Virus record (IMG/VR): IMGVR_UViG_3300025889_000182
Span: 1 to 49,590 of that record
Reading direction: 5' to 3' (one strand)
Length of the DNA stretch: 49,590 nucleotides
Source: a virus
This document shows positions 614 to 48,553 of the stretch, in pieces. The first letter of the stretch is position 1, and every line of letters starts with the position of its first letter. The notes beneath the pieces are model-generated. The model was given only the letters and a program-made list of their open reading frames with translations, searched no databases and was not told the DNA's origin. A program made the translations under genes and the position numbers.

Positions 614-2361
614 TGAAGATCACACGAGAAAGACTAAGACAGATTATTATGGAAGAAGCCGCACTTGGGAGATATGCATTTCCGAAAGTAGCGGTCACTC
701 CGGATCCAGAAAAGGCGAAAGAAGAAGATACACCACTCGAAAAAGAATTGGCTATCCGTATAAATGCTCACTTTCGCAAGAACTATCCTCTTCGCCAGCA
801 AACAGCAGACCAAATACAAGCCTTAATGTCTGACTATCCCGGTGTTTTTAGAATGTATACCGGCGGCGATGTCTATAGAGGAATGCATGCTCCAGCAGAA
901 TTGACAAAAACAATCTTGGTTGATAAATGGAATGTCTTGACACCTCTACAGAGAGGCCAACCCACGACAGATGACGGAGGAGTAGGAGAAGGTGATGTTG
1001 TCGGATCTTCTTGGTCTAAGAAGTTAGAAACTCCGGGTTGTTTTGTTGACAAAATGCGTAAACCAGAAAATTATGGTTTTATATTGGTAGCAAGTACAAG
1101 TGAAAACAAATTTATCGATGAAGCGCCATTAACCAACTATAAATTCGCCAGTTATGGTAAGCCGGATGCCGTGACAATCGACCCCGGCGAAGAACAGCCG
1201 CAGAAACCTGTTGCGGTTGGCGGGAATGAGCGCTGGGCACCAGAAGGATGCGGCGCAAACCAGTATGAAGCAGTCGGCATTGGCCCGATAAAGATGACAA
1301 GAGCCATCATTACTAAAATACCTAACGGCGCGACAAAACAAGATGTTCTGGCCGTACTGGGTGGAAGAGTACCAGATTATATCCAATTTACCAACGAAGT
1401 AAAACAGCAGTTGGAATCCGCTCCGCAGCAAGAACAGCCAGTAACCGAAAACAGAATGAGAATCACACCAGAAAGACTAAGAGAGATTATCACAGAAGAA
1501 GTAAGACAAAAACTTTTGGTTGAGCAGATAAAAAAAGATCTGCTTCAAGAAGGCTTAGTCGATTTTGTCAAAAAGTTTTTTGATGAAGATTACTATGAAA
1601 ATATGATGAACGATTTGGAAGGTGGCGAAATACAAAAAGTTGCCCCACCACCACAAAAGAAAAAAGATAAAAAACTATTTTTTGATCTTCCCGGTAAAAG
1701 AAGAATAATCCAATTAGCTTTAATCGGTCTTTTTGCTGGTGGTGTAGCCGAGGGATTGGGGACATATGCTGATTCTTATGATCCTGCCGAACTGGCAGCA
1801 GCAGAGAACATCAGAGATGCAATGGCTGCGGGACAGGAGAATGCACAAAACATAAGTAATTTTATGCAAATGGCTACTGCTGAAGGCGAAACACCGACAG
1901 GAGATATATATCAAGATTTAGATCAAATTAGAAATACATATGGGGATAGACTTGAAGCAGCCCCCATTAGTCCGGGTTTTGGAATGATGGCTAATGGAAA
2001 AATCGCCAAGGGATTTGCTTATGTTCCGGCTGATCAAATACCTGACGATGAATTATTGCCTGCAATTGGTATGACCAAAGCTGATTATGAATTGCTTTTG
2101 AGAATGATCTGGCTAGCCGGAGATTCAGCAGGAGATGAACGCTTGGAACAATATGTCACAGGTGGTGGACGTCGAGGATCCTCAGTATTCTGGTCTTATC
2201 ATGATGATTTGTACTCGCCTGTTCTTGATGTGCAACATTCTGATGAGGCTACGCAAGAAAAAATGAGAGAATTATATGGAGAAGAAGCCGATCAGTTTCT
2301 TTTGCTCCCATTGGAGTGGTCCGTGGCCTATGATCTCCTACAAAAAAGAGCCGCAAGATAA
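613..2361 (+). CDS. Tagged two-domain protein with ADP-ribosyltransferase-like N-terminal half; predicted capsid cargo
   Basis: 582 residues. I chose ATG 613 because GGAGG at 601-605 is well spaced and the protein then begins with the tag MKITRERLRQIIMEEA. Residues 75-225 resemble the R-S-E ADP-ribosyltransferase fold: VYRG (R89), SSWS (132-135) in the place of the STS motif, and ANQYE with a QxE pair (Q217, E219). T4 packages such an enzyme, Alt, in the capsid and injects it. A second tag, MRITPERLREIITEEV, begins at residue 282, after which an unrelated half follows with a lysine-rich stretch and a possible membrane segment near residues 365-390. Cleavage at both I-x-E sites would release two proteins. 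Both family and processing are inferred from motifs. The function of the second half is unknown. Confidence 0.6.
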   Translation: MKITRERLRQIIMEEAALGRYAFPKVAVTPDPEKAKEEDTPLEKELAIRINAHFRKNYPLRQQTADQIQALMSDYPGVFRMYTGGDVYRGMHAPAELTKTILVDKWNVLTPLQRGQPTTDDGGVGEGDVVGSSWSKKLETPGCFVDKMRKPENYGFILVASTSENKFIDEAPLTNYKFASYGKPDAVTIDPGEEQPQKPVAVGGNERWAPEGCGANQYEAVGIGPIKMTRAIITKIPNGATKQDVLAVLGGRVPDYIQFTNEVKQQLESAPQQEQPVTENRMRITPERLREIITEEVRQKLLVEQIKKDLLQEGLVDFVKKFFDEDYYENMMNDLEGGEIQKVAPPPQKKKDKKLFFDLPGKRRIIQLALIGLFAGGVAEGLGTYADSYDPAELAAAENIRDAMAAGQENAQNISNFMQMATAEGETPTGDIYQDLDQIRNTYGDRLEAAPISPGFGMMANGKIAKGFAYVPADQIPDDELLPAIGMTKADYELLLRMIWLAGDSAGDERLEQYVTGGGRRGSSVFWSYHDDLYSPVLDVQHSDEATQEKMRELYGEEADQFLLLPLEWSVAYDLLQKRAAR

Positions 2362-2509
2362 AGAAAATACTTGCCAGCACCATGTTTCTGTGCTATTCTA
2401 TATGTATGGAAACAAAAAAGATCACAAGATTCGTTAGCAAACTCATGGTGGAAGCCATGATTTTGTACTTTTTCTTTTACTTTTCTATCTTTTTTTGGAG
2501 CATGGTATT
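2362..2509 (+). other. Intergenic stretch with a small hairpin
   Basis: 148 bp between two long genes. It holds a 6-bp perfect hairpin, TCATGG/CCATGA with a TGGAAG loop, at 2443-2460, followed by TTTTGT and a pyrimidine-rich run. This could be a weak terminator or a 5' mRNA structure for the recombination gene. I see no clear sigma70 promoter and no ACTATTTATT element here. It also contains a candidate microprotein, listed separately. Confidence 0.4.
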
Positions 2510-2513
2510 TTGA
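2382..2513 (+). CDS. Candidate 43-aa membrane microprotein
   Basis: ATG 2382 opens a 43-codon frame; an in-frame ATG at 2406 would give 35 residues. The N-terminal half is basic (METKKITRFVSKL) and the C-terminal half is a run of Phe, Tyr, Ile and Trp that would form one transmembrane helix. Its TGA (2511-2513) overlaps the TTG start of the gp47/46 fusion as TTGA, the same coupling geometry as the ATGA overlaps elsewhere in this window. No good ribosome binding site precedes either ATG, and the composition could be a chance product of the T-rich leader. I keep it as a possibility only. Confidence 0.25.
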   Translation: MFLCYSICMETKKITRFVSKLMVEAMILYFFFYFSIFFWSMVF

Positions 2514-5500
2514 AGTTCGCACATATTTCCGACACACACATCAAAAATCTAAAATTTCATTACGAATACAACATAGTTTTCAACAAGCTATACGAAGAAC
2601 TAAAAAGTCTTGGTGTGGATTACATTATCCACACAGGCGACATCGCCCACACAAAAACACAGATCTCTCCGGAGTTCGTTCAGATGTGTTCCGAGTTTTT
2701 TCGGAATCTGTCTGATATTGCCCCGACATATATTATTCTCGGCAACCACGATGGTAATCTAAAAAACAGCAGTCGTCAAGATGCTATCACTCCCATCGTC
2801 GAGGCACTAAATCTACCAAATCTTTATTTGCTAAAAGATTCTGGCGAAACACACTTGGACAACAACTTTTGTCTAAATGTGCTTTCTGTGTTTGACCGAG
2901 ACAACTGGACACAGCCAACAGATACAAATAAAATTAATATTGCTTTGTATCATGGGTCTATTAGCAACTGCAAGACCGATAGCAACTGGACTATGAGTTC
3001 TGGCGAAGACGAGATCAGCATCTTTGATCATTTCGACTTTGCTATGCTTGGCGATATTCATAAGACACAGCAAATGGACGATGAAGGTCGCATTTGGTAT
3101 GCTGGTTCTACCGTTCAGCAAAACCATGGAGAAACAGACAACAAAGGTTATTTGATTTGGGATATCCAAGATAAAAATACTTTTTCTGTAAATCATCACA
3201 CAATCCCCAATCCTATTCCGTTTTTCACAATAAATCTTACTCCCAAGGGGCAGATGCCTAGAAATATTTCTGTGCCTGAAAATGCTCGTCTGCGGCTCGC
3301 CAGCAACAACAATTTGCCTCTACAAGCAATGCATAAGGCACTCGAAGTAGCAAAGCATCGTTTCAAGCCAGAAAGTATTACTTTCTTGAACCGAGCAGCA
3401 GGAGAACGAGGAAGTGTTACAGAAGTCGATGACCGCTTCAAGAACGAAAACCTACGAGATATTAAAGTTCAAGAGCGAATTATCGCAGAGTATCTGGAAG
3501 AGTTCGAAGTTGACGACGACACCATCAATGCCGTTTATGAACTAAATAAAAAATATAATCGCATCATCGAAGAGTCGGAAGACATTTCCAGAAATGTAAA
3601 TTGGAAACTCCGCCAGTTCAAGTGGGACAACCTTTTCAACTACGGCAAAGACAACAGCATCAACTTCGACAACTTGGGCGGTATTATCGGCATCTTCGGT
3701 AAGAACTTTTCTGGTAAGAGTTCCGTTATTGATGCCGCACTATACACGATGTTCAACACAACTTCCAAGAACGAACGGAAGAACCTCAATATCATCAACC
3801 AGAACCAGAATACTTGTAATGGCTATATCGAGATTGAGGTTGGCACAGATATTTACAAAATTACCAGAACATCAGAGAAATATACCAAGCGTCTAAAAGG
3901 CGAAGAAACACTAGAAGCCAAAACAGATCTAAACTTTGAGAAGTATGATATGATTACAGGCGTAACCACTTCTCTAAACGGCACCACCCGCATGCAGACG
4001 GATGCAAATATTCGCAAGACCTTCGGCACCATTGAAGATTTTTCTATGTCCTCATTGGCCTCACAGCACGGAGCATTTACATTTCTAGACGAAGGATCTA
4101 CCAAGCGAAAAGAAATTATTGCTAAGTTTCTTGACTTGGAGTTGTTTGATAAGAAATTTAAGACAGCAAAAGAAGACTTTGTTGGCTACAAAGCACTTAT
4201 TCGCAAGAACGAGAACCGAGACTTTGATACAGAAATCCAAAACACTTTGGATAATGTAAAAGAATTAAAAGCATCCTCAAAGCAAAACGAAGCCCGTTGT
4301 CGTGTTCTGGCAGCAAGTCTGTCGTCCCTAAATGCGGAACTAACAACTCTACAAACACAAATCGATAGTTTGCCATCAGAGATTATTGATATTGGTAAGT
4401 TGCTAAACTCCAAGGAAGAAGCAACAAATGTCATTTCTTTGCTACAAGAAAGCATTGCTACAGATATAAACAACATCCGTACAAAGGAAGATCGACTACA
4501 AAAAGCACAAACTTTCTTGTCTGCTATTGATATTGGAGAGTTGAGAGCAAAGAAAAAGACTGCTGATGACCTACGAAACACAGCAAAGGGCCTAAAGTCA
4601 GAACTTGACGATATTGATAAGAAGCGACAATTGCTCGGTAGTATTCCTTGCGGAAGTGACTTTCCAACTTGCCGTTTCATCAAGGATGCTCATGTTTCTG
4701 TTATGAATGCTCAAACCGTCGAGAGCCAACTAAAACATGCTCTCGATACTTACCGCTCTCTCAAGATTGATGAGGTGGATACACGACTAACTCAATACAA
4801 CGAAATCGAAACTCTATCCACAACTTTGGATAAGGAAATCTCAAATCTAAAACTAAAGGTTGAGAGAACCCACAATACAAAGACAAGCAAAGAGTTCGAT
4901 TTGCGAGAGATCGACATCAAGATCAACGAGTACAATCAAAACAAAGAAGTCATCGAGAACCTACAAGAACTACTATCACAAAAGAAAAGCACAGAGAAGC
5001 AAATTAAAAAAGCAGATGCAGAGGTAGATAAGTGCGAAAAGAGTAACATTACACTCTATAAGAACATCGGCTCCGCAGAACAGAAACTACAAACCATCAG
5101 AGAAGAGAAAGAAGCACATCAAGCACTAATGCGCGAGTATTCTGCTTGCGACCTATTCCTTCGCTGTATGCATCCAAATGGTATTGCTTATGATATTATC
5201 AAGAAGCGAATCCCAGTTATCAACCAAGAGGTCGCAAAGATCTTGGCGAACATTGTAGATTTCGAAGTATTTTTTGAGAGCAATAACAATAAACTTGATA
5301 TTTTTATTAAGCACCCATCACATGACCCACGACCTATCGAAATGGGTTCTGGTGCAGAAAAGACAATGGCGGCTATTGCGATAAGACTGGCTCTACTTAG
5401 TGTTTCATCGCTTCCAAAGGCGGATATTTTTATTTTAGATGAGCCGGGAACTGCTTTGGACGAAGAAAATATGGAGGGCTTTATTCGTATCTTGGAACTA

Positions 5501-5617
5501 ATTAAGGTATATTTCAAAAACGTTCTATTGATCTCGCATTTGGATTCACTTAAGGATTGTGTAGACATGCAGATCGTTATTGAAAAAAATAAAGGATATG
5601 CGAGGATAAATCAATGA
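2510..5617 (+). CDS. Single-chain Mre11-Rad50 (gp47-gp46, SbcD-SbcC) recombination nuclease
   Basis: 1035 residues. I place the start at TTG 2510, nine bases after GGAG (2497-2500), giving the SbcD-like N-terminus MKFAHISDTH. Residues 1-320 are a calcineurin-like phosphoesterase: D8/H10, GDIAH (43-47), GNHD (78-81), GDIHK and an AGSTVQQNHGE segment. A Rad50/SbcC ATPase follows: Walker A GKNFSGKSS (397-405), long coiled-coil arms, a Cys pair (C714, C721) at the hook position, ABC signature near 945, and Walker B ILDEP with D977/E978. T4 has these as two genes, 47 and 46, working in recombination-dependent replication and host DNA degradation. The frame is uninterrupted. The hook is CX6C rather than CXXC. 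The TGA overlaps the next ATG. Confidence 0.9.
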   Translation: MKFAHISDTHIKNLKFHYEYNIVFNKLYEELKSLGVDYIIHTGDIAHTKTQISPEFVQMCSEFFRNLSDIAPTYIILGNHDGNLKNSSRQDAITPIVEALNLPNLYLLKDSGETHLDNNFCLNVLSVFDRDNWTQPTDTNKINIALYHGSISNCKTDSNWTMSSGEDEISIFDHFDFAMLGDIHKTQQMDDEGRIWYAGSTVQQNHGETDNKGYLIWDIQDKNTFSVNHHTIPNPIPFFTINLTPKGQMPRNISVPENARLRLASNNNLPLQAMHKALEVAKHRFKPESITFLNRAAGERGSVTEVDDRFKNENLRDIKVQERIIAEYLEEFEVDDDTINAVYELNKKYNRIIEESEDISRNVNWKLRQFKWDNLFNYGKDNSINFDNLGGIIGIFGKNFSGKSSVIDAALYTMFNTTSKNERKNLNIINQNQNTCNGYIEIEVGTDIYKITRTSEKYTKRLKGEETLEAKTDLNFEKYDMITGVTTSLNGTTRMQTDANIRKTFGTIEDFSMSSLASQHGAFTFLDEGSTKRKEIIAKFLDLELFDKKFKTAKEDFVGYKALIRKNENRDFDTEIQNTLDNVKELKASSKQNEARCRVLAASLSSLNAELTTLQTQIDSLPSEIIDIGKLLNSKEEATNVISLLQESIATDINNIRTKEDRLQKAQTFLSAIDIGELRAKKKTADDLRNTAKGLKSELDDIDKKRQLLGSIPCGSDFPTCRFIKDAHVSVMNAQTVESQLKHALDTYRSLKIDEVDTRLTQYNEIETLSTTLDKEISNLKLKVERTHNTKTSKEFDLREIDIKINEYNQNKEVIENLQELLSQKKSTEKQIKKADAEVDKCEKSNITLYKNIGSAEQKLQTIREEKEAHQALMREYSACDLFLRCMHPNGIAYDIIKKRIPVINQEVAKILANIVDFEVFFESNNNKLDIFIKHPSHDPRPIEMGSGAEKTMAAIAIRLALLSVSSLPKADIFILDEPGTALDEENMEGFIRILELIKVYFKNVLLISHLDSLKDCVDMQIVIEKNKGYARINQ

Positions 5618-6444
5618 AACTTATTATGGAAAGCTGGAAGAGATTTGTAAATGAGGAAGCGGATCCCAATAAACTAGATCCCAATATGTTCCCGCTCAAA
5701 TTGTCTGACGTCGAGCCAAAACGTGCTAATTTCTTGTCGAGAACAGGCACAAAAGACGAGCTAGCCCCGGATGATCAAATTAAAGTTGAGCATAAACCAG
5801 AAGGCATTGCACCAGTTCAGCAGCTTAAGCCTTCACAATCTAGTATGAATATTGGCAAAGCTTTGGCTATGGCTTTAAATATGATGTGGGATGGACACGC
5901 AATTAGCGCCGGGGGAGATCTAGGTGCTTTTATTAGTGAAGACGGGTATATTATGGATGGTCACCATCGATGGATTGCGACTGCTATGATCGATCCAAGT
6001 CTTCAAGTTGGTGGATATTTAGTACATTTTCCCGGCGAAAAACTAGTTCCTGTTTTGAATGCAATGACAAAAGGCATGTTTAGGGTCAAACAAGGCAAGC
6101 CCGGTACTGGCGGCTTTGACCAATTCGTTCCCGAAAAAATTAAACAAACTTTGCTAGCCTATGCCAAAAACGGAAAAGCTTGGGGTATGAAAGCAGAAGA
6201 TGTTATGGAGGTTTTGGAAAAATTTACAGGCCAGCAGGGAGAAGCCGCTGTAGAAGCCGCTGCGAACAAAATGGCTCAAAATGTACAGACATTAACAATG
6301 GAAACACCTCCTTGGGCCCCTGCACGCCCAGATATGCCTGTTATTGATGGTGGTAAGAGGGTGAAAAAAGCCGCCGATGCTCTACAAAAAGGCCAAATTA
6401 ATGTCAATCCGCCTTACAAGCCAGCGAGAGATCCTAATCTATAG
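5614..6444 (+). CDS. Tagged ParB/sulfiredoxin-like domain protein; predicted capsid cargo
   Basis: 276 residues, starting inside the previous stop (ATGA). The N-terminus MKLIMESWKRFVNEEAD is one of two examples of the MKLIMExWxRFV tag; it ends in V-N-E, close to the T4 gp21 cleavage consensus. Residues 70-165 contain GYIMDGHHRW (111-120), the signature of the ParB/sulfiredoxin nuclease-like superfamily, in which the G-H-H-R loop binds nucleotide. The C-terminal third is rich in Ala and Gln and has no motif I recognise. ParB-like domains bind CTP or act as nucleases or kinases in other phage and plasmid proteins, so the substrate here is open. The tag suggests delivery with the virion rather than action in replication. 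Confidence 0.6.
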   Translation: MKLIMESWKRFVNEEADPNKLDPNMFPLKLSDVEPKRANFLSRTGTKDELAPDDQIKVEHKPEGIAPVQQLKPSQSSMNIGKALAMALNMMWDGHAISAGGDLGAFISEDGYIMDGHHRWIATAMIDPSLQVGGYLVHFPGEKLVPVLNAMTKGMFRVKQGKPGTGGFDQFVPEKIKQTLLAYAKNGKAWGMKAEDVMEVLEKFTGQQGEAAVEAAANKMAQNVQTLTMETPPWAPARPDMPVIDGGKRVKKAADALQKGQINVNPPYKPARDPNL

Positions 6445-6477
6445 TTAAAAAGAGACTAAGAATAACAAGCTAGAAAT

Positions 6478-6960
6478 ATGAACTACTCTTTTGACTACGA
6501 CAATACTCTTATCAAGTATAAGGGTATTCGAGATTCAGAAGGTAAACTAATAGATGTGATATACGACGGCCCTCATTACGAAAACATCTCAATATTGAGA
6601 AAGTTGTCTGATGAGGGTCATACCATTTATATTATTACCTCACGAATCGAATATGACCCAATCGATTTTAAATTTGATTGGGATACCAGTCCTTTGCCAC
6701 AAGAAACAATAAAAAACTTAAACTTGCCAATAGAGGCAGTTATTTATACTAATGGTCGCAAAAAACTTGAAAAGCTGTTGCTACACAAAATAAAAAAACA
6801 CTGGGATGATGACATAAAGGAGTGCGAAGAGATATTTAAGTATAACAACCTTTCATATCCAAAGTCTATTGGACATCAAATTGAATGCTGTTTGGTTGAT
6901 GTTGAAGAAGGCTTAACTGTTGGATTGAGAGAAAAATTTATGAGGTTAGCAAAACTATGA
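6478..6960 (+). CDS. HAD-superfamily phosphatase
   Basis: 160 residues. Motif I is SFDYDNTL, with D6 as predicted nucleophile and D8 as acid/base. IITSR (52-56) is motif II. The NGRKKLEK segment can supply the motif III lysine, and KHWDDD the acidic motif IV. The size and lack of a large cap resemble phage and bacterial HAD phosphatases that act on nucleotides or on 3'-phosphate ends. The exact substrate cannot be read. The ribosome binding site is poor. The gene opens a run of overlapping genes, the next start being in its own stop (ATGA). Possible roles are nucleotide salvage or DNA/RNA end repair; both are inference. Confidence 0.7.
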   Translation: MNYSFDYDNTLIKYKGIRDSEGKLIDVIYDGPHYENISILRKLSDEGHTIYIITSRIEYDPIDFKFDWDTSPLPQETIKNLNLPIEAVIYTNGRKKLEKLLLHKIKKHWDDDIKECEEIFKYNNLSYPKSIGHQIECCLVDVEEGLTVGLREKFMRLAKL

Positions 6961-7229: not shown

Positions 7230-7480
7230 GTTTCTTTTTAATTTCTTTGTTATTGGTTGATTTAGAAGATTCTTCTATGATGGAAACAGAAGCTATGGCT
7301 ATTCAGCTTTATTTAGAGGATTTATTAGGTCATGAAAAACATTGTCCTCAAATTGAGTGGGAACAACCCGATATTGAAGTTTATAAAGAAACTTTGGTTT
7401 CCCATTTGCCAGAGGGTTGTGTTCCACAAGAAGAAGCCCAAGAACCAGAAGGTGAATCAGATGAAAATCAGCAAGGCTAG
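7226..7480 (+). CDS. Small acidic protein with signal-like N-terminus
   Basis: 84 residues, start coupled to the previous stop (ATGA). The first 11 residues, MSFFLISLLLV, are hydrophobic, but no positive charge precedes them and the segment is short, so it is a weak signal peptide or anchor. The rest is strongly acidic, with two Cys and a Glu/Gln-rich end. I recognise no family. The last 20 bases overlap the start of the tagged GNAT gene in another frame. Confidence 0.5.
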   Translation: MSFFLISLLLVDLEDSSMMETEAMAIQLYLEDLLGHEKHCPQIEWEQPDIEVYKETLVSHLPEGCVPQEEAQEPEGESDENQQG

Positions 7481-8216
7481 AATAAGAAAAATAATATTAG
7501 AAGAAATCAATAGAAAACTTTTAATTGAGAAAAAAACTGTTTTAGATCCCTCTGAATATGGTGCGATGATGGAGACTGCCTCTGGCGAAATGGATATTCA
7601 TGTCTACAAAATAAATAAAGATAATGATACCGACCAGATCGAAGTTATTGGAACCATCACTCTAAGCAAAACTGAAGAGCCTTGTATTCCCAGAACTTAT
7701 CAAGTAGATTCTATCGCGGTAAAAGAAGCCTATCATGGAAAAGGCATTGGTTTAGACCTTTACCGTTTTGCTATGGGTATTTTGGATAAGCGAGGATATG
7801 GTATTACATCTGACCACAGCAGCGGAACAAAACAAAAGGCAACAGAGTTTTGGGTTCGTTTAGGTTCTGATGCCGATAGGAATGCTGGCTTGGCTTACAA
7901 GAGACAGACCGATATGGGTAATGATACTTTCGATTATGACGGAAGCACACCAGATCCAAATGATGATTGTGAATCTGTTATGCTTAGTGGAAACAATGCT
8001 ACGGATCATAGTTTCCGTATCAACCCTTCCGAGGCTGGTTCTGCTCGCAGCCAACTTATGCAACTTATGAAAAATCATATACTTATAAGAAGGGAATTCG
8101 AAAGAGGCCAAATCAAAGTTTCCAGTTTGAGAAGCCTAAGTGCAAGTGTATTGGAGAGATACATTATAAAAGAAGCAACAAAAGTCTTTATTGAAGAATA
8201 CGGAAAAGCAGCATAG
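7461..8216 (+). CDS. Tagged GNAT-family N-acetyltransferase; predicted capsid cargo
   Basis: 251 residues from ATG 7461. The frame is open further upstream, but this ATG gives the tag MKISKARIRKIILEEI and is preceded by AAGGTG at 7449-7454. VDSIAV (82-87) and YHGKGIG (91-97) match GNAT strand beta4 and motif A (R/Q-x-x-G-x-G/A), which binds the acetyl-CoA pyrophosphate. The domain spans roughly residues 45-160. The C-terminal 90 residues are unassigned. The natural idea is a virion-delivered acetyltransferase that modifies a host protein or small molecule at infection. The substrate is unknown. The overlap with the previous gene is 20 bases. Confidence 0.65.
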   Translation: MKISKARIRKIILEEINRKLLIEKKTVLDPSEYGAMMETASGEMDIHVYKINKDNDTDQIEVIGTITLSKTEEPCIPRTYQVDSIAVKEAYHGKGIGLDLYRFAMGILDKRGYGITSDHSSGTKQKATEFWVRLGSDADRNAGLAYKRQTDMGNDTFDYDGSTPDPNDDCESVMLSGNNATDHSFRINPSEAGSARSQLMQLMKNHILIRREFERGQIKVSSLRSLSASVLERYIIKEATKVFIEEYGKAA

Positions 8217-8224
8217 GAGTTTGT

Positions 8225-9358
8225 ATGTCTAACGACGAGTTTTCATTTATGCCCCCAGCCGAGGCACCACCACTCTTTAACCAAGAAGAGGACAATTTTG
8301 ACGAACAGGTGGCAGCAGAGGATTTTGGAATGGTTGAGGATTTTGGCCTTCAGATGGAGTTTTCCGATGAAGACCTCCTCCCTCAAAATACCGCTCCCTC
8401 TTCGTTAAATATTGGTTTCGTGGGTGTCGGTGGTGGAGGCAACAAAATGGCACATGCCATGATAGAGATTGGTTTTACCAAAACTCTATTGGTTAATACA
8501 ACAGGCAAAGACATCCCAAGAGGTGTTGGAGAGAAACATGTAGTATTGATCCCCGATTCTGACGGAATCGGTAAAAACACACAATACGGTAAAGATGTAC
8601 TATCACAGAATGGTGCTGTTGTTGAAGATGCCCTTAGAATGCGACTAGGACATGTAGACTGGCTGTTTGTTTTTGCTGGCGGTGGTGGCGGTACTGGATC
8701 ATCTGTTACAGCATTACATCCAGTATTTGAGAGATATATGACCTCTATCCAAGCAAGCGGCAAAGTTATTTATGTTGTATCTTGGCCGACAGCACAAGAA
8801 AAGCTAAACCCAACAATTGCTCGTAATGCTCTAACACTTATCAACGATGTATCTGGTTATCCGCATATCGTTCTTGACAACGAGCGATCAACGAGACTAT
8901 TGAGAAACCAAGTTGGTATGCTTGGTATGTATCCAATGGCGAATACTCAGTTCGGTAAGATGCTCGCTCAGATTTTAAAACTATCCACAGAAGTATCACC
9001 TATCCAGTCTTTCGATTCTCGTGACTTGGAAACTTGCTTGGGTAATGATGGAAGGGCATTTTTTGGTTCTACAATGGTAAAAGACCCGACAGGGGCAAAT
9101 TTAGGCTCAGTTATTATGCATAACTGTATGAACCGCTCATCTTGTCCTCCACCAAAAGGCAAGGCAGCAGCGGGTTCTTTGATACTTGTCGTATCCGAAG
9201 AGATGGTTGCTGACCCAAGAATATCTAAACAATTAGAATCAGCCATCGCTTTTGTCGGTGGCCGTTGCGAAACACTTTTCTCCGGTGTTTATGTTCGCAA
9301 AAATGTACCCGGTCTTATTGCGATACTATCTATGAATGGTATAGAAAGAGGGAAATAG
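8225..9358 (+). CDS. Tubulin/FtsZ-like GTPase
   Basis: 377 residues with AGGAG just upstream. An acidic disordered leader (1-60) precedes a tubulin/FtsZ core. IGFVGVGGGGNKM (63-75) matches the FtsZ N-terminal glycine loop, and AGGGGGTGSS (151-160) is the tubulin signature. VIYVVSWPTA...IVLDNERS follows the FtsZ pattern of strand, helix and IPNDKL segment. FDSRDLETCLGNDGRAFFGS (263-282) aligns with the FtsZ T7 loop region, and both catalytic aspartates (D264, D267) are kept. A GTP-dependent filament is therefore plausible. Phage tubulins such as PhuZ position replicating DNA or the phage nucleus in phiKZ-like phages. Here the neighbours are virion-cargo and packaging genes. Its role is unknown; interference with host FtsZ is an alternative. 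Confidence 0.8.
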   Translation: MSNDEFSFMPPAEAPPLFNQEEDNFDEQVAAEDFGMVEDFGLQMEFSDEDLLPQNTAPSSLNIGFVGVGGGGNKMAHAMIEIGFTKTLLVNTTGKDIPRGVGEKHVVLIPDSDGIGKNTQYGKDVLSQNGAVVEDALRMRLGHVDWLFVFAGGGGGTGSSVTALHPVFERYMTSIQASGKVIYVVSWPTAQEKLNPTIARNALTLINDVSGYPHIVLDNERSTRLLRNQVGMLGMYPMANTQFGKMLAQILKLSTEVSPIQSFDSRDLETCLGNDGRAFFGSTMVKDPTGANLGSVIMHNCMNRSSCPPPKGKAAAGSLILVVSEEMVADPRISKQLESAIAFVGGRCETLFSGVYVRKNVPGLIAILSMNGIERGK

Positions 9359-9359
9359 T

Positions 9360-9533
9360 GTGAAAATCTCAAAAGAAAGATTGATGGAGATCATAAAAGA
9401 AGAAATCGAAGCGATAGAAGAGGAAGAAAAAAATAATCCTTGGGCTATTTGCACGGCTTCTGTTGGTCGAGAAGACAAAGAAAAATATGAGAAGTGTGTA
9501 AAAAGTGTAAAGAAAGATAACAAAGAGAGGTAA
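9360..9533 (+). CDS. 57-aa tagged small protein (GTG start)
   Basis: GTG 9360 is preceded by GAGG (9348-9351) and gives 57 residues. Residues 1-16, MKISKERLMEIIKEEI, are the shared tag. The remainder is charged, with NPWAICTASVG and two Cys (C31, C46) in the segment WAIC...KYEKC. The tag is thus nearly a third of the protein. After cleavage at I-K-E about 43 residues would remain. I recognise the WAICTASVG pattern only as a recurrent small phage protein of unknown role. The reading frame sits exactly between two genes, which supports it being real. Confidence 0.6.
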   Translation: MKISKERLMEIIKEEIEAIEEEEKNNPWAICTASVGREDKEKYEKCVKSVKKDNKER

Positions 9534-9535
9534 AA

Positions 9536-9751
9536 ATGATGGAAGAAATGAAAGAAGCCGCAGCAGGCAAACTAGATAAATTTACAGAGAAGATCATTTC
9601 TAGAAAGTTTCTAGTATGGATCTCGGCTACAACTCTAATGGCTTATGGCCTATTGGATTCGGCTGACTGGGTAGTTATCTCAGGTCTATATCTAGGCGGT
9701 CAGTCTGTTATTGATGGTATCGTAAAACTTAAGGGCCTTGGCCCTAACTAA
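9536..9751 (+). CDS. Small two-helix membrane protein, holin candidate
   Basis: 71 residues; ATG 9536 or 9539 are both compatible with GAGAGG at 9525-9530. A charged N-terminus is followed by two hydrophobic segments, KFLVWISATTLMAYGLL and DWVVISGLYLGGQSVIDGIV, joined by a short acidic turn (DSAD). Size and topology fit class II holins. No endolysin lies beside it, so the lysis role is inferred from architecture and from the membrane/coiled-coil genes at 10288-11059. Confidence 0.5.
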   Translation: MMEEMKEAAAGKLDKFTEKIISRKFLVWISATTLMAYGLLDSADWVVISGLYLGGQSVIDGIVKLKGLGPN

Positions 9752-9770
9752 ATTATCAGGAGACAAAACA

Positions 9771-10259
9771 ATGAGTATTACAAAAAAAGAATTGAGACAG
9801 ATTATCAAAGAAGAAGTTTTAAAAGAGTTACGGCGGATAGATGAGAGAGAATCGTATATACCACAATATACGGGTGTTGCTTATGGGGCAAGGGAATCAA
9901 AGGCGGAAGGACTCATGGATAAAATAAAAGCAGATTTAAAAGCTCTACAAAAAATTGAAAGAGGAAGCGCGGTCAGCAGGTTTATGAAAAAGAGCGAACG
10001 AAGCAATTATTTTGATAAGATTATAAAAAATGGCCGAGGCTTCGAAGACCTCATGTGCGGACTTGGGGGTTGCAAAGGCGCAGCCCGGCCCCTCGACATT
10101 AGTGATTTTTGGATTGGAGTATATAATCCGAAAGGAGGTAATGTATATGCGGTCTATGCTGTTTGGGATATGGATGACCTCCCAGAGGAAATGAGACATC
10201 CTAAACCCGGAGGTTCAACTAGGCCGATAGACCTCAAAACATTTCAGAAAATGCTTTAG
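9771..10259 (+). CDS. Tagged protein of unknown function; predicted capsid cargo
   Basis: 162 residues. The frame opens earlier, but ATG 9771 has AGGAG at 9758-9762 and gives the tag MSITKKELRQIIKEEV ending in I-K-E. A basic/acidic helical linker follows, and then a compact C-terminal part (about residues 85-162) with GRGFEDLMCGLGGCKG and strands around FWIGVYNPKGG and YAVYAVWDMDD. I do not recognise the fold. The tag, spacing and position among other tagged genes suggest a packaged protein. Confidence 0.55.
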   Translation: MSITKKELRQIIKEEVLKELRRIDERESYIPQYTGVAYGARESKAEGLMDKIKADLKALQKIERGSAVSRFMKKSERSNYFDKIIKNGRGFEDLMCGLGGCKGAARPLDISDFWIGVYNPKGGNVYAVYAVWDMDDLPEEMRHPKPGGSTRPIDLKTFQKML

Positions 10260-45636: not shown

Positions 45637-46809
45637 TTGTATTTTCAGACATTAGATGACAAGAAAGAGTGTGTCGGAATCTACACAGACGGTAAAATAT
45701 TTTTTGATGATATGCCCCAGAATCTAAAACGAACTTGGGCTTACACAGGTTCGATTGAGGACGATGGGGTTGAATACGCTCATATTTATGCTTCGGGCAA
45801 GTCTTTGGAGGAAGCTTGTCCAGAAGATCTTAAAGATGAGTTCCTTGAATCACAGAAAAAATTAAAATCCTGTCTGAAAAGTTTCTACACATCCAAGATT
45901 TCTTTGAGGGAATATTGTATTTTCGATATGATCCCACATAGATTTCTTATGCAGTTCTGTGAGATCCGTAATAAAATCACAGAACATGTATTCCAGACTT
46001 GTGAAAAGCCAAAGAACTACGAACTTTTGAGCGAGTCATTTAAGTTATTGCACAAAATTAAATATAAGGAGTTGAATCTTGACGTTCATGATTGCCGGGA
46101 GCTACAAATCAAAGAAAAAGACAGGCAAAAAGTAGCAGAGCTTTTGCAGACCAGATATGTGGATTATAACCTGTTTGGAGCGGCCACAGGACGGCTCACA
46201 ACGAATAAAAAAAGTTTTCCCATACTGACTATCAAGAAAAAGTTTAGAAGGCTTATAAAGCCTAATAATGACTGGTTTGTCCAACTGGATTATAATAGTG
46301 CCGATGTAAGAACTTTTATTAATTTGATCGGCGAAAAGCAACCAGAAGGCGATGTCCATGAATGGAATGTTGAAAACCTGTTTGGTGGCTCTTGTACGAG
46401 AGAAGAAGCAAAAGTAAAATTCTTTGCTTGGCTCTTCAATCCAGAGTCAGACATCGTACAAAACCCTCGATACAACAGAGACAATATTCTGGATAAATGG
46501 TATAAAAATGGTGTGATTTCGAACCCATACCGACGAAAAATAAATGTGGATGAAAGGCGAGCCTTGTCCTATTTAGTACAGAGCACAACCAACGATAGAA
46601 TTCTTGATCGGGCTATTGAGATTGATGAACTTCTAAAAGACAGAAGATCTTACATTTCATTTTTTATTCACGATGAGATAGCTATTGACTTCGCTCATGA
46701 AGACAGAGACTTAATACCAAAAATAAAAAATATATTTGAGTCTGGTGGGTTCAAGTCAAACATAAGTGTCGGAAAGAATTATTTTGACTTGAAAGAAATA
46801 AAACAATAG
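45637..46809 (+). CDS. Compact family A DNA polymerase
   Basis: 390 residues. TTG 45637 follows the previous TAA without a gap; GAGG lies at 45627-45630. ATGRL (183-187), motif A QLDYNSADVR (217-225, D218 catalytic; the usual Glu of the motif is Asp), an O-helix-like TREEAKVKFFAWLF (254-267) and motif C FFIHDEIAI (342-350) identify a Pol I-type polymerase. The 3'-5' and 5'-3' nuclease domains are absent, and the thumb is short. T4 uses a family B enzyme, so replication here is different. Either the nuclease is a separate gene outside this window or this enzyme does repair. Confidence 0.85.
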   Translation: MYFQTLDDKKECVGIYTDGKIFFDDMPQNLKRTWAYTGSIEDDGVEYAHIYASGKSLEEACPEDLKDEFLESQKKLKSCLKSFYTSKISLREYCIFDMIPHRFLMQFCEIRNKITEHVFQTCEKPKNYELLSESFKLLHKIKYKELNLDVHDCRELQIKEKDRQKVAELLQTRYVDYNLFGAATGRLTTNKKSFPILTIKKKFRRLIKPNNDWFVQLDYNSADVRTFINLIGEKQPEGDVHEWNVENLFGGSCTREEAKVKFFAWLFNPESDIVQNPRYNRDNILDKWYKNGVISNPYRRKINVDERRALSYLVQSTTNDRILDRAIEIDELLKDRRSYISFFIHDEIAIDFAHEDRDLIPKIKNIFESGGFKSNISVGKNYFDLKEIKQ

Positions 46810-46818
46810 AGGTGTAGG

Positions 46819-47658
46819 TTGATATCAGTTGTAGGCTTGGGCAATGCTGCTTCAGTAATAGCAGAAAAATTTTCTACCAGCCCAAATTATAATGTTTTTC
46901 TTCTCGGCTCAAAGGTTGCCGAGGGCAAAAATAATTTTGTCCTCAAATCTTTCCAAAATCCAGAAGAATATGAAAATAATATTCCTGATCTAACCAACTT
47001 ATTCGAGAACATAGACGAAAATATCCAGTTTTTTGTCGTTGGCTCATCGATGAGTTCAAATTACTCGTTAGGTGTATTAGAACAAATAAAAAATAAGAAT
47101 ATTGACTTGTTTTACATCAAACCAGACACAGATTTAGTATCTGGGGTGCCAAAACTGGTAGAAAATGCCGCATTTGGGGTCTTACAGGAATATGCTCGTT
47201 CTGGGCTTATTAACTCCATTACCCTTATATCTAACAAAAACTTGGAAAGTGTCTTGGGAGATGTCCCAATTAAAAAATATTACGATACCCTGAACCAAAC
47301 TATCTTTTCGTCCATTCATTATTTGAATTATTTTTCGCACAACGAGCCGGAAATTGGAGTTCAGACAAAGCCAGCAAATGTTTGCCGGATTCGCTCGGTT
47401 GGAGCACTAAATATGCAGAATCTTGAAGAAAAGTGGTTCTTTGATCTTGACAATCAGAGAGATCTCTGCTATTATTTATGCATAAACAAGGAGAAGTTGG
47501 AAACAGACGGAAAAATACATAAAAAGTATGTAGACATTCTAAAAACCAAACCGCGAAATGCTTTTCGCAATATTTCGTACTCTATTTATGAAACAGATTT
47601 AAAATCTGACTTTGGGTTCTGCGTTGCCCACACAAACGCAACACAAAATAATACTTGA
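46819..47658 (+). CDS. Tubulin/FtsZ-like protein lacking the GTP signature (putative)
   Basis: 279 residues; TTG 46819 with AGAGGTG upstream. MISVVGLGNAASVIAEKF resembles the N-terminal glycine loop of FtsZ-like proteins. QFFVVGSSMSSNYSLGVLEQ is at the place of the tubulin signature, but GGGTGS is missing. LFYIKPDTDLVSGVPKLVEN followed by AAFGVLQEYARSGLINSITL and ISNKNLE follows the FtsZ order of strand, linker, helix and IPNDKL loop, in parallel with the protein at 8225. I infer a tubulin-fold relative that has lost or changed GTP binding. A Rossmann-type protein is the alternative. Confidence 0.45.
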   Translation: MISVVGLGNAASVIAEKFSTSPNYNVFLLGSKVAEGKNNFVLKSFQNPEEYENNIPDLTNLFENIDENIQFFVVGSSMSSNYSLGVLEQIKNKNIDLFYIKPDTDLVSGVPKLVENAAFGVLQEYARSGLINSITLISNKNLESVLGDVPIKKYYDTLNQTIFSSIHYLNYFSHNEPEIGVQTKPANVCRIRSVGALNMQNLEEKWFFDLDNQRDLCYYLCINKEKLETDGKIHKKYVDILKTKPRNAFRNISYSIYETDLKSDFGFCVAHTNATQNNT

Positions 47659-47683
47659 CATGATACGGCAAGTATAGTAGAAT
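47655..47683 (+). promoter_or_regulatory. Sigma70-like promoter of the SSB gene
   Basis: TTGACA (47655-47660), a 17-bp spacer and TAGAAT (47678-47683) form a near-consensus host promoter. The start codon is 55 bp downstream of the -10 box. It fits early or middle expression of the SSB, separate from the late units. Confidence 0.8.
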
Positions 47684-47737: not shown

Positions 47738-48505
47738 ATGGCAATTAATATGGATCTTATGCGACAGAAGCTCGCAGCACTACGAGGCGATACCCGTGGA
47801 ACTTCCTCGGAGACTTCTGTCTGGTTTAAACCCGAAGAGGGCGAAACCAATATTCGGATTGTTCCGGCTCGCGATGGCGACCCGCTAAAGGAAATGTTTT
47901 TCCATTACAATGTAGGTGAACACAAGGGTGGTGTTCTTTGTCCTAAGAAGAACTTTGGAGAGTCTTGCGCTATCTGTGACTTCGCATCCCAACTATGGCG
48001 CGATGGTTCTGAAAACAACGACGACGAAACCAAGAACCTCGCAAAGTCCCTTTTCGTTCGTACCCGTTATTTCTCGCCAATTGTCGTTCGCGGTCAGGAA
48101 AGCGAAGGAGTAAAGGTATATGGATACGGAAAGAAGGCTTATGAAATGCTTCTTGGATACATCCTTGACCCTGATTACGGTGATATTTCTGATGAAAACC
48201 ACGGCACTGACATCAAGTTGACCTACACAAAGCCAACAAAGCCCGGTGCTTTCCCACAAACTACTCTCAAGATGAGTCGCAACACCTCCCCTCTAACCGA
48301 CTCTCGCGGTGAGACTGAGACACTATTGGGTTCTATGCCTGACTTTGATACTCTCTTCAAGCGCTATACTTCTGCCGAAGTAGAAGCCATCTTGAACGAG
48401 CAACTATCAAGTGATGGCTCCGCAGAAGGCTCTTCTCGCGAAACTACACGATACGGCTCCAATCCTGTAGATGATGCCTATAACGAACTCCTCGCCGGTA
48501 AGTAA
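47738..48505 (+). CDS. 32: Single-stranded DNA-binding protein (gp32-like)
   Basis: 255 residues, T4 gp32 having 301. N-terminal MAINMDLMRQKLAALRGDTR is the basic cooperativity region. The OB-fold core holds a zinc site: H62, C68, C77 and C80 in EHKGGVLCPKK and GESCAICD, as in gp32. KSLFVRTRYFSPIVVRG and YGKKAYEMLLGYI are core strands and helix. The C-terminal tail is Ser/Glu-rich and acidic, the usual docking site for replication proteins. AAAGGAG precedes the ATG. It has its own sigma70-like promoter and terminator, and codon use is comparatively biased, fitting high expression. Confidence 0.92.
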   Translation: MAINMDLMRQKLAALRGDTRGTSSETSVWFKPEEGETNIRIVPARDGDPLKEMFFHYNVGEHKGGVLCPKKNFGESCAICDFASQLWRDGSENNDDETKNLAKSLFVRTRYFSPIVVRGQESEGVKVYGYGKKAYEMLLGYILDPDYGDISDENHGTDIKLTYTKPTKPGAFPQTTLKMSRNTSPLTDSRGETETLLGSMPDFDTLFKRYTSAEVEAILNEQLSSDGSAEGSSRETTRYGSNPVDDAYNELLAGK

Positions 48506-48523: not shown

Positions 48524-48553
48524 GGCAGACCGGAAAAAGTCTGCCTTTTTTTG
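48524..48553 (+). terminator. Rho-independent terminator after the SSB gene
   Basis: GGCAGAC (48524-48530) pairs with GTCTGCC (48539-48545), then seven Ts. It separates the SSB unit from the restriction-modification unit. Confidence 0.9.

Follow-up and report, generated by a model that had tools for sequence, protein, structure and literature searches.

What does a phage gain from a gene that appears to encode a second, signature-less tubulin in its DNA replication block? The question is raised by the window analysed here, a stretch of 49,590 nucleotides read on one strand (IMG/VR record IMGVR_UViG_3300025889_000182, positions 1-49,590). A first-pass annotation had paired the protein of the reading frame at 46819-47658, hereafter B, with an intact tubulin-like protein encoded at 8225-9358, hereafter A, and had proposed that the two form a two-component tubulin system. 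For B we computed the gene, its family, its fold, the loss of its motifs, its genomic slot and the selection acting on it.

The window covers part of the genome of a large T4-like myovirus and includes a terminase, a portal (phrog_213), a major head protein (phrog_138) and a tail sheath, and related contigs reach 194-196 kb. In contig G018 the A gene is divided between the two contig ends, and in contig G014 the distance from A to B fits only if counted through the contig ends, the pattern that circular permutation of the genomes would produce. By terminase, the nearest named relatives are Flavobacterium Immutovirus (47% identity), Microcystis phage Mel-JY01 (44%) and a 484-kb uncultured phage (43%). 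The window also contains an ORF of 1040 aa (2495-5617) that matches the SbcD-like as well as the SbcC-like subunit, which gives the appearance of a fusion.

B is a conserved gene of marine phages

The B reading frame (46819..47658, + strand; 279 aa) is intact, opens with a TTG start codon after AGGTG and contains the segments VVGSSMSS, LFYIKPDTD and ITLISNKNLE on which the pairing with A had been built. A pattern scan of IMG/VR recovered at least 590 relatives. Two long contigs led to a second clade of greater divergence (46-48% identity to the window copy), and a member of this clade used as scan query returned 37 loci. The dN/dS of B is about 0.1, and B is a real gene under purifying selection. 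Among named phages no relative was found, the sole match (Cellulophaga phage phi10:1, E 0.02) being attributable to chance, and the bacterial and archaeal genomes searched held no relatives of A or of B.

A is by sequence a complete tubulin-family GTPase

The partner assigned to B is indeed intact as far as its sequence can tell. A (8225..9358, + strand; 377 aa) carries VGVGGGGNKM, GGGGGTGSS and DSRDL, and matches PF00091 (2e-7; 34.5 bits with frame neighbours and 31.8 in a separate search, against a cut-off of 33), TIGR00065 (6e-13) and FtsZ chains among the PDB sequences (2e-9). Over 17 relatives there is no variation in the T1 loop, the GGGGGTGSS loop or the T7 acids D264 and D267, and dN/dS against the nearest relative is about 0.02. 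The structural model of A is poor (pLDDT 51), probably because the alignment is too uniform, so that the assignment rests on sequence; the best structural match of this model is CetZ (3zid), with Z 17.7. No relatives of A were found among named phages, and PF00091 detected no third tubulin in six long genomes.

Mean column identity of A over the 17 relatives is 91%, including a 60-residue N-terminal tail that precedes the tubulin domain. Such strong conservation may suggest many binding partners.

B has a predicted tubulin fold that sequence comparison does not reveal

B had been read as paralleling A segment by segment, and this parallel proved no better than that of shuffled sequence: 96 of 300 shuffles of A scored at least as high as A itself against an HMM built from 120 B-family sequences. 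BLASTP of B against A returned nothing (E 8.5), and hhalign of the two family alignments gave 0.7-0.8% probability, with only the first glycine loop aligned. Given these negative tests, the motif parallel is not evidence by itself, and it is the predicted fold of B that carries the observation beyond chance.

Comparisons of B with Pfam, PHROGs and NCBIfam were empty or far below cut-off, neither PF00091 nor TIGR00065 matched, and searches of the PDB sequences, with one sequence and with two profiles in hmmsearch, found no tubulin. The sole Pfam hint, GARS_N (E 0.007, below cut-off), was rejected as a generic Rossmann match. One divergent B member reaches the FtsZ model TIGR00065 with E 0.18 at the colinear T6-H7 region; this match and the T1 loop of the second clade, GIGEAGCN, are hints in the right places.

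AlphaFold2, given 25 aligned family members and no templates, produced a model of B with pLDDT 88.6 and pTM 0.87. Foldseek of this model against the PDB found FtsZ (E 4e-13, TM 0.70), and VIA-align 2 found CetZ at Z 22.3 (rmsd 3.1 Å over 256 of 279 residues), TubZ at 20.7 and tubulins at about 20. All 722 of 722 chains aligned to the model at Z of at least 8, and among the matches listed all belong to the tubulin superfamily. The best viral structural matches are phage FtsZ, tubulin and PhuZ, with PhuZ of phage Noxifer at a Foldseek E of 2e-6. The match spans the GTPase domain, H7 and the C-terminal domain; the model runs through S1-S6 and H7 to strands S7-S10 and H10, with no helix at the places of H8 and H9. 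On this modelling, B almost certainly adopts the tubulin/FtsZ fold over its full length, as had been supposed. Were the fold a modelling error and B another Rossmann-type protein, its want of a significant sequence match to tubulins, the lone GARS_N hint and the poor quality of two of the five AlphaFold2 models (pLDDT 58-60) would be accounted for. Conversely, a Z of 22 over 256 of 279 residues, C-terminal domain included, and the presence of only tubulin-superfamily chains among the matches listed render such an error highly implausible.

Motifs kept and lost in the B family

Conservation was counted over 120 aligned sequences, with pocket residues placed from the alignment and the secondary structure and not by coordinate superposition. 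In the first glycine loop (T1; 46834..46857, + strand; residues 6-13, GLGNAASV), G6 is kept in 119 and G8 in all 120 sequences. At the T4 position (47041..47061, + strand; residues 75-81) GSSMSSN stands instead of GGGTG(S/T)G. The loss of GGGTGS, which had been called from the window copy, extends to the family: GSSxSSNY or close variants occupy the position in most of the 120 sequences, G75 is nearly invariant, and one divergent member has CGSGRTAN.

The description of B as signature-less nevertheless calls for qualification, in that the part of the pocket that recognises the base appears to have been kept. From T6 to early H7 (47233..47304, + strand; residues 139-162), N139 is present in 118 of 120 sequences, Y or F at 155 (Y155 in the window) in all, and N159 in all, their equivalence to FtsZ/tubulin positions being one of alignment and not of coordinates. 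The spacing of these three residues is what we take to be that of the guanine-base contacts in FtsZ and tubulin. P102 and D103 are likewise nearly invariant, and mean entropy is 0.89 bits in the pocket loops against 1.26 bits in the rest (p 0.02, with loop limits chosen by the analyst). Judged by these patterns, base binding by B may survive, and there is an even chance that B still binds some nucleotide.

The T7 catalytic motif (NxDxxD/E) and H8 are not recognisable in B, either in the AlphaFold2 model or in the 120-sequence alignment. No acid is invariant in residues 174-190, and the window copy has N187. Positions 176, 178 and 187 each carry an acid in 72-85% of members, which leaves a T7-like acid conceivable; hydrolysis by the canonical mechanism is unlikely. 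B fails two defining sequence features of the tubulin/FtsZ family. Hence, sharing the predicted fold and failing these features, it is best described as a variant of the tubulin fold, outside the canonical tubulin/FtsZ GTPases.

Two further elements bear on what such a variant might do. The turn between H5 and S6 (YARSGL) is almost invariant and lies on the lower side in tubulins, like a conserved longitudinal contact. B might on that account form a non-canonical filament or ring of its own, with nucleotide bound, little hydrolysis and no dependence on A; however, H8 and the T7 motif, which make the canonical lower contact, are the very elements not recognisable in B, and we consider a filament of this kind improbable. 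The last strand (DFGFCVAHTN), highly conserved and over FGFCVAHTN also nearly invariant, is not typical of tubulins. Together with the missing canonical catalytic motif, it would suit a tubulin scaffold reused to bind RNA, protein or some other ligand, with neither a filament nor a replisome function. The base-contact positions of the pocket are still conserved, though, and this reuse seems to us distinctly improbable.

B occupies a nearly constant slot between polymerase and SSB

The placement of B between a polymerase and a single-strand DNA-binding protein (SSB) is confirmed by profile matches. Directly upstream lies a family-A DNA polymerase (45637..46809, + strand; 390 aa; PF00476 6e-8; PHROG pol 3e-14), and downstream a gp32-like SSB (47738..48505, + strand; PF08804 5e-15). 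A promoter-like site between B and the SSB (47655-47683) and a terminator-like hairpin after the SSB (48524-48545), both consensus matches only, suggest that B may belong to the polymerase transcript.

We surveyed this slot in 161 loci with B. The polymerase is directly upstream in 152 of the 155 loci where both genes are visible, the remaining three having inserts of 1.4-2.6 kb between them, and the SSB begins no more than 200 bases downstream of B in 153 of 154. Six loci lack a polymerase match; four of them end inside B. Loci L007 and L008, which show no polymerase in their 1.8 kb and 0.6 kb of upstream sequence, fall in the same subclade as the insert-bearing loci.

The window polymerase, at only 390 aa, seems to lack a distinct exonuclease domain within its ORF. 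The three inserts (L005, ~3061-4488; L006, ~4145-6671; L009, ~1044-3631) encode several proteins, mostly pentapeptide-repeat-like, with a leader of the form MKLTKPxLKQIIKES. A segment of the MKITKxxLKQIIKEE type, N-terminal or near it, is common to many unrelated proteins, both in the window (7332-8216, 9360-9533, 9738-10259) and in these three loci between polymerase and B. By analogy, these proteins could possibly share it as a targeting tag that directs them, for instance, to the prohead.

In Immutovirus, Mel-JY01 and the 484-kb phage, the slot of B is occupied by a conserved family of 129-151 aa with the motif HRKKESNTLYTINALN (L254, 1346-1801; L252, 7621-8064; L257, 5785-6174). This family shows no similarity to B, and a search of B-bearing genomes did not turn it up.

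A and B occur together within one lineage

Relatives of A and B do occur together, and the pair is carried by a widespread group of large marine phages. Among 30 related contigs, 14 have both genes, in every case on one strand, B following A at a distance of about 38-42 kb, and the other 16 end before the expected place of the missing gene. With the window included, both are present in all 15 of the contigs whose length allows the question to be asked. Neither gene was found in the named relatives (Immutovirus, Mel-JY01 and the 484-kb phage) or in eight Immutovirus-like contigs (52-167 kb, five of them >120 kb), with contig G002 as positive control. The presence and absence of A and B is a single difference between lineages and so counts as one phylogenetic event.

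Across the lineage, identity to the window copy is 80-84% for A and 47-62% for B. Distance correlations over 13 genomes were 0.25 for B-A (partial -0.36), 0.87 for B-terminase and 0.59 for B-polymerase; after removal of two deep-branching genomes, the remaining 11 gave 0.38 for B-A, 0.76 for B-terminase, 0.85 for B-portal and 0.88 for B-polymerase. The method is noisy, since the top correlate of B shifts from terminase in the larger set to polymerase in the smaller, and it has little power for A, which is nearly constant (mean distance 0.10). The rates of A and B covary no more than those of other gene pairs, which lends no support to an obligate copolymer.

Neither outcome that had been named as refuting the original proposal, a predicted fold unlike tubulin or relatives that never share a genome, was obtained. 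These results nonetheless divide the idea of a two-component tubulin, with B as cap, regulator or bridge or, more broadly, as a protein that joins, seeds or caps A filaments: co-occurrence stands, within one lineage, and special covariation does not. The idea would also fit the absence of both genes in the nearest relatives, CetZ being the best match of both models, and an upper pocket that is conserved in B above an altered lower region, as expected of an end-specific seed or cap. Because the lower face (T7/H8) is lost and the upper nucleotide face kept, B might occupy a single end of an A filament, as gamma-tubulin does, and link that filament to DNA under replication. It has to be set against this that the shared presence is one event, that the B-A correlation is low (a test of little power), that A is far more constant than B and that the genes lie some 40 kb apart. 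We therefore regard a two-component system as possible but unlikely, though it is the chief competitor of the explanation that we prefer. The more specific idea of an end-specific seed or anchor coupling A filaments to the replication fork, as a viral analogue of gamma-tubulin or the kinetochore, appears rather doubtful.

Discussion

Taken together, our findings are best explained, tentatively and at somewhat less than even odds, by B being a replication-associated pseudo-tubulin. Such a protein would retain the tubulin/FtsZ fold in full and, probably, the side of the nucleotide pocket that binds the base; it would have shed the phosphate loop GGGTG(S/T)G, H8 and the catalytic T7 motif. Probably made together with the phage DNA polymerase, it would most likely be an accessory of replication that binds nucleotide without hydrolysing it and serves as a scaffold or switch close to polymerase and SSB, and not a self-sufficient cytomotive filament. 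We infer the nucleotide binding, the absence of hydrolysis and the replisome partner; adjacency of B to the polymerase and SSB genes does not prove physical interaction. Counted in favour of a replication accessory are the correlation of B with the polymerase (0.59-0.88, against 0.25-0.38 with A), the position beside polymerase and SSB, the nearly invariant pocket residues and the low dN/dS. That B would serve replication without A is a shade more tentative again, and a replication-associated pseudo-tubulin is somewhat more likely than an A-B copolymer.

How does B compare with known members of the superfamily? Its best structural match, CetZ (archaeal tubulin-like cell-shape proteins; PDB 3zid, 4b45), is 11% identical to B, which is shorter and viral. 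CetZ keeps GGGTG(S/T)G, T7 and H8. A and B both belong to the tubulin superfamily and both match CetZ (3zid) best; A has all the canonical motifs, whereas B is degenerate and faster-evolving. PhuZ and phage TubZ (phiKZ, 201phi2-1, c-st) are phage-encoded tubulin folds, as B is predicted to be, but B lacks the signature and is accompanied by a second, complete tubulin. PhuZ has the catalytic T7 aspartate (PMC3678025). Phage tubulins have been described singly (PMC7824862, PMC13282480, PMC7950403), and we found no report of a second tubulin in PhuZ/TubZ phages.

The nearest precedent for degenerate relatives of the superfamily is FtsZl1 (Makarova and Koonin 2010), which is defined by a kept GGGTG(S/T)G loop, a coiled coil and an alpha-helical C-terminal domain. 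Neither T6-H7 nor the C-terminal domain of the superfamily can be recognised in FtsZl1, and canonical filaments are doubtful for it (PMC2875224). B is the reverse: where FtsZl1 keeps the loop and has lost the C-terminal half, B has lost the loop and keeps T6-H7 and the C-terminal domain. Membership of FtsZl1 was rejected for B, which is without the loop and has a C-terminal domain of tubulin type.

Our search of the open-access literature turned up no account of a phage with two proteins of tubulin fold, nor of such a fold being encoded in a replication operon. Members of the B family abound in ocean viromes and escape the profile libraries now in use (Pfam, PHROGs, NCBIfam), and assigning the family a predicted fold goes beyond the reach of these libraries. 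Should B prove to bind polymerase, SSB or A, DNA replication would have a pseudo-tubulin attached to it, and ideas on how specialised tubulin subunits arise could be put to the test in a simple system.
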